A stretch of 64,000 nucleotides of DNA from an uncultured Holophagaceae bacterium. GTDB lineage: Bacteria; Acidobacteriota; Holophagae; Holophagales; Holophagaceae. Positions 21,406-24,807 of this stretch are shown in pieces. The stretch is taken from positions 186,001 to 250,000 of the forward strand of contig CAIZZF010000026.1 of assembly GCA_903937385.1 (NCBI GenBank), written 5' to 3'. Made by a program: the position numbers and the translations under genes. The notes beneath the pieces are model-generated. The model saw nothing but the letters and a program-made list of their open reading frames with translations, searched no databases and was not told the origin of the DNA. The stretch's first letter is position 1. Each line of letters opens with the position of its first letter.

Positions 21406-21438
21406 AAAAAAACGGGGCGCCCTGTCAAAGGGCGCCCC
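21406..21438 (-). terminator. Rho-independent terminator of atpE
   Basis: On the minus strand ggggcgccc (21438-21430) pairs perfectly with gggcgcccc (21422-21414) around a 7-base loop, followed by a T run (21412-21406). It lies 18 bases after the atpE stop and ends the nuo-atp transcript before the RelA/SpoT-like gene. Confidence 0.9.
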
Positions 21439-21455
21439 GCAGGAACCGGATCAGC

Positions 21456-22591: not shown

Positions 22592-22993
22592 TCAATCAGG
22601 CGGGGTGTCTTCGGGTTTCTCGAAGCCCAGACGTAGGGCCTCGAGGAGAATGCCGGCCACGAAGAGAAGGACCCCCAGGGCCAGCGGTAAGGCTTCCGCC
22701 GGGTATAGGGCTATCATCCCACGCAACACCAGTGCGATCAACGCCAGTTTGCCCAGGGACAGGAACCCGTAGACCCACCGGAGGCGGACCGAGGGGGTCA
22801 GCATCCGGCCCGTGAGCACCCGGTGGAGCCCCCAAAAGCCGAAGCTGGTCAGACACCCCACCCCGAAGGCCAGGGCAGCGGTCCAGGAGCGGAACAGCCC
22901 CCAGAGAAGCACGCCCAGGAGGCCCACCACCACCATGGCCTGGGTGATCCGCCGCAGGTGGTGCTCACCCTCGCCCATGGGGGTCCTTGCCAT
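22592..22993 (-). CDS. AtpI-like small membrane protein (ATP synthase subunit I)
   Basis: 133-residue protein with four hydrophobic segments and no soluble domain, placed between atpZ and atpB where subunit I usually lies. It resembles AtpI-type proteins in size, helix number and position rather than by a strong motif. The family is associated with F0 assembly or ion supply. AGGAGAA upstream supports ATG 22993, which overlaps atpZ by 29 bases; ATG 22978 is possible. Confidence 0.72.
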   Translation of the reverse strand: MARTPMGEGEHHLRRITQAMVVVGLLGVLLWGLFRSWTAALAFGVGCLTSFGFWGLHRVLTGRMLTPSVRLRWVYGFLSLGKLALIALVLRGMIALYPAEALPLALGVLLFVAGILLEALRLGFEKPEDTPPD

Positions 22994-23267
22994 CGGGCTG
23001 ATTCTCCTCCAGCTTGCGCAGCTCCTCTGCGTCCCGCCGGGCCATGCGCCGGTTCAGCTTGTAGAGCTCCCAGAAGGCTGCGCCGATGCCCCAGATGAGG
23101 CCTACCCACTGCCCCCGGGCCGGGTGGCCGAACCAGCCGCCGATCCAGCGGCCCAGGAAGAAGCCCAGGGCGATGCAGAGCGGAAAGGAGATGCCCAGGG
23201 ACATGAGGTCCCCCCAGAGCGCCCGCTCCCCGGGGTCGGCGTCTTCCTTGCCCGGCTTCAGGATCAC
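22965..23267 (-). CDS. atpZ: AtpZ-type F0F1 ATPase accessory membrane protein
   Basis: 100-residue protein with two hydrophobic helices (GISFPLCIALGFFLGRWIGGWF and QWVGLIWGIGAAFWELY) and a charged C-terminal tail, the AtpZ/DUF-AtpI pattern. The usual call would start two codons earlier at GTG 23273, but that codon directly abuts the GGGGAG. GTG 23267 has GGGGAGG five bases upstream and is the better start. It begins 17 bases after a strong hairpin that ends the nuo part of the cluster. Confidence 0.8.
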   Translation of the reverse strand: MILKPGKEDADPGERALWGDLMSLGISFPLCIALGFFLGRWIGGWFGHPARGQWVGLIWGIGAAFWELYKLNRRMARRDAEELRKLEENQPDGKDPHGRG

Positions 23268-23283
23268 CCGCACCTCCCCAGAA

Positions 23284-23319
23284 AGACTTAAGGCGCGGGT
23301 GGCCCCGCGCCTTAAGTCT
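23284..23319. terminator. Perfect 16-bp hairpin between nuoN and atpZ
   Basis: Arms 23284-23299 (agacttaaggcgcggg) and 23304-23319 are perfect complements with a 4-base loop. On the minus strand the stem is followed only by TTTC and then the atpZ ribosome site. It may act as a terminator, partial attenuator or RNA-processing site between nuo and atp genes. Confidence 0.8.
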
Positions 23320-23343
23320 AATGCAGGAAACCCTGGATACGAC

Positions 23344-24807
23344 CTACGCCAGGAAGACCTTGCCGGCCCAGTCCAGCAGCCAGGGGCCGAAGGCCGTGCC
23401 GACCAGGACCAGGATGCAGGCCAGGGTCACGATGAACACCGAGGCGGCGCCCATGGGGATGGCCTCGCCTTCGGGCTCGCGGAAGTACATCTGGCTGACC
23501 ACGCCCAGGTAGTAATAGGCGCTCACGGCACTGGTGAGCAGGGCGAGGACCGTCAGGGTGACGTAGCCCTGCTCGATGGCCAGCTTGAAGAGGTAGAACT
23601 TCCCGAAGAAGCCCACCAGCGGGGGGATGCCCGCCAGGCTCAGGAGGAACACCATCATGGCGAAGGCCAGCACCGGGCGCTTGCGACCCAGGCCCTTGAA
23701 GTCCTCGATGCGCTCACCCTCACCCTGGCCCTGCAGGTAGATCACCACGGCGAAGGCGCCGGTGTTCATGACGATGTAGATGGCCATGTACAGCCAGACC
23801 GCCTGGGCGCCTGCCTGGGGGTCGCCCGACAGCACGCCCAGCAGCATGTAGCCCACGTGGGCGATGCTGGAGTAGGCGAGCAGGCGCTTCATGCTCTGCT
23901 GGTTCACCGCCGCGATGTTGCCGAGAATCATGCTCGCGCCGGCAATGTAGCTCAGCGGCAAGACCCAGTCGCTGGACACCCCGTGGAAGCCCGTGCCGAA
24001 GACCCGCAGGATGGCGGCCAGGCCCGCGGCCTTGGGAGCCGTGGCCATGAGGGTGGTGATGGGGGTCGGGGCGCCCTCGTAAGCGTCGGGCGACCACATG
24101 TGGAAGGGCACTGCGGCCACCTTGAAGCCCATGCCCACCAGCACCATCAGCACCCCGGAGAAGACCAGCAGGCTGCTGGACTTGGGGGTGAGGGCCAGGG
24201 CCTGGTTCAGGTCCGCCAGGTTGGTGGTCGTGCCACCGGCCGCCCCGTAGAGCAGGCTGATGCCGTAGACGAGGATGCCGCTGGAGAAGGCCCCCAGCAG
24301 GAAGTACTTCATGCCGGCTTCCACGCTGGTGGCGCGGTCCCGGAGGTAGGCCACCAGGATATAGATGCAGATCGCCATGAGCTCGACGCTGAAGTAGATC
24401 GAGATCAGGTCGGAAGCGCCGCAGAGGAACAGCATGCCCGAGAGGGAGAACAGGATCAGGGCGTAGTACTCGACGGTCTGCTGCTTGAGGCTGTCCAGCA
24501 GCCGCACGCTCAGGGCCACGGCCCCCGCGCAGCCGAGCACGCAGAGCATCTGGAAGCCCCGGGTGAGGCCATCCATGCGGAACATGCGGGAGAAGCCCTC
24601 ACCTTCCGTGGTCCGGGTCACCAGCACGGCGGTGATGGCGAGCACCAGCAGCGTGATGGGCGCCCACTTGTGCTTCTCGGCCCGGCTGAACATCAGGTCC
24701 CCGGGCCAGAGCATGAGCGTGGCCACGGTCATCAGGAAGAGTTGGGGCAGGATCAGATGCGTGTCCCGAAGGAGCGCATCCAGAAGCCCCTGAGAGAAGC
24801 CGGTCAT
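23344..24807 (-). CDS. nuoN: Complex I subunit N
   Basis: 487-residue antiporter-like membrane subunit of respiratory complex I. The protein is almost wholly hydrophobic with about 14 helices and contains the proton-translocation segment FFSVELMAICIYILV with its key Glu and the RATSVEAGMKYFLLGAFSSG region, followed by FKVAAVPFHMWSPDAYEGAPTP. Its start overlaps the nuoM stop by four bases. It is the last nuo gene before the hairpin and the atp genes. Confidence 0.96.
   Translation of the reverse strand: MTGFSQGLLDALLRDTHLILPQLFLMTVATLMLWPGDLMFSRAEKHKWAPITLLVLAITAVLVTRTTEGEGFSRMFRMDGLTRGFQMLCVLGCAGAVALSVRLLDSLKQQTVEYYALILFSLSGMLFLCGASDLISIYFSVELMAICIYILVAYLRDRATSVEAGMKYFLLGAFSSGILVYGISLLYGAAGGTTTNLADLNQALALTPKSSSLLVFSGVLMVLVGMGFKVAAVPFHMWSPDAYEGAPTPITTLMATAPKAAGLAAILRVFGTGFHGVSSDWVLPLSYIAGASMILGNIAAVNQQSMKRLLAYSSIAHVGYMLLGVLSGDPQAGAQAVWLYMAIYIVMNTGAFAVVIYLQGQGEGERIEDFKGLGRKRPVLAFAMMVFLLSLAGIPPLVGFFGKFYLFKLAIEQGYVTLTVLALLTSAVSAYYYLGVVSQMYFREPEGEAIPMGAASVFIVTLACILVLVGTAFGPWLLDWAGKVFLA

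Follow-up and report, generated by a model that had tools for sequence, protein, structure and literature searches.

The hairpin at the boundary between the complex I (nuo) and ATP synthase (atp) genes of an uncultured Holophagaceae bacterium, which we analysed within a 64,000-nucleotide stretch of DNA (the window), most plausibly acts on transcription. Judging by comparison with related genomes, our preferred reading, to which we give a probability of roughly 0.55, is that a nuo terminator, probably a partial one, overlaps the atp promoter on the same DNA; the two gene sets are probably transcribed separately. Under this reading, polymerases arriving from nuo would copy the whole hairpin and would be stopped there, at least partly, and atpZ-atpI-atpB-atpE would start at their own promoter, with its -10 box at the outermost bases of the 5' arm. 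A start site about 7 nt past this box, inside the arm, would leave the atp mRNA without the outer stem and with a stub of 5-7 bp standing apart from the U-tract, so that this mRNA would escape the signal meant for nuo RNA; the stub may also protect its 5' end. When folded, the read-through hairpin of the window reaches -32.4 kcal/mol, compared with -11.1 kcal/mol for RNA beginning at the predicted start.

Features of the nuo-atp boundary and the end of the atp unit, in window coordinates
Feature	Position	Strand	Basis or details
nuoN, which ends the complex I cluster	23344..24807	minus	ORF of 487 aa
Predicted -10 box for atpZ: TAGACT (relatives: TACACT)	23315..23320	minus	hexamer conservation and placement before genes
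16-bp hairpin	23284..23319	minus	5' arm 23319-23304, loop 23303-23300, 3' arm 23299-23284
Conserved hairpin core GGCGCGGG/CCCGCGCC	23311-23304 and 23299-23292	minus	
Predicted start of atp transcription, within the first arm of the stem	23307..23308	minus	inferred from leaderless genes
Weak U-tract TTTCTGGG, 3' of the stem	23276..23283	minus	sequence; TTTTC or TTTTTT in relatives
GGGGAGG, ribosome-binding site of atpZ	23273..23279	minus	sequence
atpZ	22965..23267, start GTG 23267-23265	minus	ORF; start set by comparison with relatives
Strong intrinsic terminator 3' of atpE, at the close of atpZ-atpI-atpB-atpE	21412..21440	minus	

An inverted-repeat search bore out the perfect 16-bp stem and 4-base loop that had been described from the sequence, with two arms of 16 nt that are 100% complementary, and this was the sole inverted repeat of at least 12 nt reported within positions 23000-23600. 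RNA folding of positions 23230-23350 (minus strand) gave -66.5 kcal/mol compared to -47.2 ± 4.2 kcal/mol for shuffled sequences (z -4.6), none of the 200 shuffles being as low. With its 16 bp, the hairpin has the stable, GC-rich stem of at least 8 pairs and the short loop that characterize intrinsic terminators, and in the window, as in the four relatives nearest to it, the stem reaches outward such that most of TAGACT is itself base-paired. Both the hairpin and its core are present in a single copy in the 3.68-Mb genome, and a repeat or REP element was rejected for the hairpin on the grounds of this single copy. A search of Rfam yielded no match at gathering score within the window, leaving the hairpin without a known RNA family.

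To place the start of atpZ we considered two in-frame GTG codons, at 23273 (giving the longest ORF) and at 23267. Four relatives (L004-L007) carry an in-frame TGA at the position of the first, and in most other relatives atpZ begins with GTG/ATG-ATC-(TTC/CTG) at the counterpart of the second, which therefore identifies the latter as the start codon. The gap between stem and gene does contain GGGGAGG, as originally predicted, but it spans 16 nt to this start codon rather than 17. Likewise, the space separating stem and atpZ is, as originally stated, too small to hold a promoter, but the outer edge of the stem itself incorporates the -10-like TAGACT.

The genus to which the window belongs includes Geothrix paludis, terrae, oryzisoli and fuzhouensis (Holophagaceae). 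A nuoN match was obtained in 58 of 60 related genomes and, within the genus, in 43 of 47, providing a comparison set of 43 loci (the window and 42 relatives), in all of which atpZ follows nuoN in the same order and on the same strand. Nearly all genus loci share a common block 5' of atpZ, consisting of G-n-C-n-TACACT, four bases, GGCGCGGG, a short loop, CCCGCGCC, a T-rich tract and a G-rich ribosome site, and the distance from the hexamer to the stem core is usually 4 nt. The hexamer is the best-conserved part of this block: it reads TACACT in 37 loci, TAGACT in five (the window and the four relatives nearest to it) and TGCACT in one, it overlaps or abuts the stem in every locus except the last (42/43), and across those 42 loci only one of its six positions varies, the other five carrying 2.0 bits each. 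The single TGCACT locus (L008, genome G017) additionally carries about 180 extra bases and another large hairpin between the block and atpZ, and its promoter may have moved. Compensatory changes in the stem, for which the original prediction suggested looking in related genomes, were found: 96% of cells are paired and there are 10 double changes compared to 2.0 in shuffles, showing that the hairpin is conserved. The GCGCGG and CCGCGC blocks stand 6, 7 or 8 nt apart and the loop is often a GNRA tetraloop, and this combination of varying distance and frequent GNRA loops is more in keeping with an RNA than with a DNA operator. In 22 genomes the hexamer-plus-hairpin pattern was found a single time per genome, and of the 31 intergenic terminator-like hairpins identified in sampled stretches of two genomes (864 kb in all), only the one at this locus overlaps a -10 box.

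The promoter half of the explanation is the firmer part. We examined the placement of the hexamer in 464 kb of the bacterium's own genome (L127-L146) and 400 kb of the relative G033 (L147-L166), with background statistics that derive from these samples, in which genes were called by a home-made program. In the former, TAGACT was directed toward a gene 16 times, away from one 3 times and lay within coding sequence 5 times, and TACACT was found 11, 2 and 2 times, respectively; the corresponding numbers in G033 were 14, 2 and 2 for TAGACT and 10, 1 and 3 for TACACT. Both hexamers are thus seldom found within genes; they occupy intergenic DNA and face the following gene, behaving like the -10 box of the genus. 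Many of these hexamers stand 6-7 nt 5' of an ATG in both genomes, which is the layout of leaderless mRNAs and puts the start site seven or eight bases past the hexamer. This pattern suggests that TANACT serves as a -10 motif, and that leaderless mRNAs occur, in Geothrix. Applied to the window, the same spacing puts the predicted start of atp transcription in the first arm of the stem, and atpZ probably has its own promoter there.

The atpZ hexamer is of the TANNNT type and stands at a fixed place, as expected for a sigma-70-type -10 box. Like housekeeping promoters of this type, TAGACT and TACACT share the T, A and final T of TATAAT and precede leaderless starts elsewhere in both genomes, but unlike them the atpZ hexamer has no recognizable -35 hexamer 16-18 nt upstream, where information is low across the relatives, and the conserved G four bases before it is not a TGn extension. 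Promoters of the form TTGAC-N17-20-TACACT are absent from the bacterium's own genome, and a general promoter scan of the window listed none at the atpZ hairpin. With no -35 element, we limit the claim to a -10-reliant, promoter-like function rather than the full sigma-70 class. A narrow literature search returned no promoter study in Geothrix.

The length of the spacer between nuoN and the hexamer divides the loci into a short-spacer class, with the hexamer 10-39 nt past nuoN (22 loci), and a long-spacer class, in which this distance is 87-393 nt (21 loci). Spacers of 10-39 nt leave no space for another element between nuoN and the hexamer, and all 22 short-spacer loci have strong hairpins (-19.6 to -29.2 kcal/mol). 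The 12 hairpins weaker than -19.6 kcal/mol all belong to long-spacer loci, and several of them are broken, with the hexamer kept; overall, long-spacer hairpins are weaker by 3.8-5.9 kcal/mol. A phylogenetic regression, picked after inspection of the data, estimated the long-spacer effect at 3.8 ± 0.9 kcal/mol (p = 2e-4). Spacer state has switched many times on the tree, and the long-spacer member was the weaker in seven of eight sister pairs, a sign test that is marginal by itself. With a relaxed detector, a second terminator-like hairpin was found between nuoN and the hexamer in 18 of the 21 long-spacer relatives, and such hairpins would block read-through from nuo. A strict two-by-two comparison of intact or broken hairpins with a strict terminator detector was not significant (p = 0.40, and p = 0.09 by spacer length); the strict detector missed mismatched stems and was replaced post hoc by the comparison of hairpin energy with spacer length and by the relaxed detector. 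It seems from these comparisons that the hairpin is needed mainly where nothing else ends the nuo transcripts, with the promoter kept everywhere. Alternatively, the weak long-spacer hairpins could have lost another function at the nuo 3' end, such as protection from exonucleases.

In many long-spacer loci (among them L016 and L018), the spacer contains a GC-rich module, CACCCCCGGACCCCCGCG followed by a terminator-like hairpin, for example GCAGAAGCCCGGCGAAGCCGGGCTTCTGC-TTTT. The exact 18-mer is present in 42 of the 47 genus genomes, in 1-12 copies that often form pairs approximately 75-230 bp apart, and the module looks like an interspersed repeat carrying terminators.

The hairpin resembles intrinsic terminators in its GC-rich stem, its short and often GNRA-type loop, the adjoining T-rich tract and its location after the last nuo gene. 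It differs from them in that its 5' arm overlaps the predicted -10 box of the next unit and in that its U-tract is interrupted, reading TTTTC in many relatives (TTTTTT in others) and TTTCT within TTTCTGGGG in the window. The window tract is thus much poorer than the T7 tail of the terminator 3' of atpE, which is present in most genus relatives examined; termination at the hairpin is therefore uncertain in the window, and read-through may be appreciable. The loop of the atpE terminator in the window holds TTGACA, with TATGCT 16 nt on, and we rejected this promoter-like match since it is not conserved in relatives. Outside the genus, two loci (L072 and L073) display TAAACT, 4 nt, a stem and T6, and a third (L075) has a terminator without a clear hexamer, the U-tracts of all three being T6-T7. 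In L076 and L083 a hairpin is located 5' of a different -10-like box, and L071 and L079 have almost no gap between nuoN and atpZ and no hairpin.

The latter two loci, with nuoN and atpZ nearly contiguous, fit an alternative in which the hairpin is a read-through attenuator, such that atpZ-atpI-atpB-atpE would be expressed mainly from nuo, with the nuo:atp ratio governed by the hairpin through partial termination, RNA cleavage or concealment of the ribosome site. The two genes are also codirectional and only 70 nt apart in the window, the weak U-tract makes read-through plausible, and in the read-through RNA of the window, sequence 5' of the stem can base-pair with the region around the atpZ start. 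We nevertheless regard this alternative as unlikely, given that the hexamer is conserved in place and promoter-typical in the sampled genomes, that terminator-like hairpins lie 5' of it in most long-spacer relatives, and that the would-be masking sequence before the stem is variable even within the clade of the window (17/25 sites). The original prediction is therefore supported only in part. It had required transcription of the four atp genes to come by read-through from nuo or from a promoter within nuoN, a claim that is not supported in view of the hexamer in 42 of 43 loci and the upstream hairpins in 18 of 21 long-spacer relatives; its further proposals, that the hairpin directs RNA cleavage or masks the ribosome site, found no comparative support among relatives.

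A different alternative leaves the promoter unchanged and makes the hairpin a 5'-terminal stabilizer or translation aid of the atp mRNA, with no terminator. In agreement with this, the hexamer-to-stem distance of 4 nt in most loci would always place a short hairpin at the extreme 5' end, and the stub in the window still folds at -11.1 kcal/mol. This too appears improbable to us: a function in the leader would not predict the weak or broken stems of several long-spacer relatives in which the promoter persists, and the conserved outer pairs, which account for most compensatory changes, would be missing from an mRNA begun at the predicted start. Finally, a palindromic operator for a DNA-binding repressor is very unlikely, since its symmetric, sequence-conserved core GGCGCGGG/CCCGCGCC in a typical repressor position directly 3' of the -10 box is offset by a half-site distance that varies by two bases, the frequent GNRA loops, the T-rich tract, the dependence of stem strength on spacer length and the lack of a second genomic copy.

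The perfect 16-bp stem is restricted to the clade of the window, within which one of 36 stem sites is variable, compared to 17 of 25 just upstream. In the sister-clade locus L040 the stem is shorter and the core is followed by CCTTCTGTTTC, where the window clade has CCTTAAGTCTTTC; TTAAGTCT, contained within the latter in the 3' arm, is the exact complement of AGACTTAA in the 5' arm. The simplest account is that the perfection of the stem probably arose by copying one arm onto the other, as in quasi-palindrome correction, which works by template switching (PMC7202029). The arm copy in the window clade and the shorter stem of L040 match that process, here inferred from comparison.

The terminator-promoter overlap that we favour could also couple nuo and atp expression, through a leaky terminator and partial read-through or through polymerase recycling. 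After termination in vitro, polymerases can stay bound to the DNA and begin again at promoters close by (PMC6978380, PMC6978322), as demonstrated in single-molecule experiments with other DNA, and a terminator located at a downstream promoter could permit restart by a recycled polymerase in a similar manner. That the arrangement is a dedicated coupling device, in which the first arm of the terminator carries the atp promoter and released polymerases restart on atp, is a long shot, but if true, the output of complex I and ATP synthase would be linked without a shared mRNA. A few narrow literature searches revealed no direct precedent for promoters inside terminators or for hairpins in atp operon leaders.

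Taken together, the long-spacer relatives provide a natural experiment, combining a weaker hairpin and, mostly, another terminator-like hairpin with a promoter box that is kept. What had been suspected to be a read-through attenuator thereby becomes a testable, predicted overlap of terminator and promoter between two main energy-conserving complexes.
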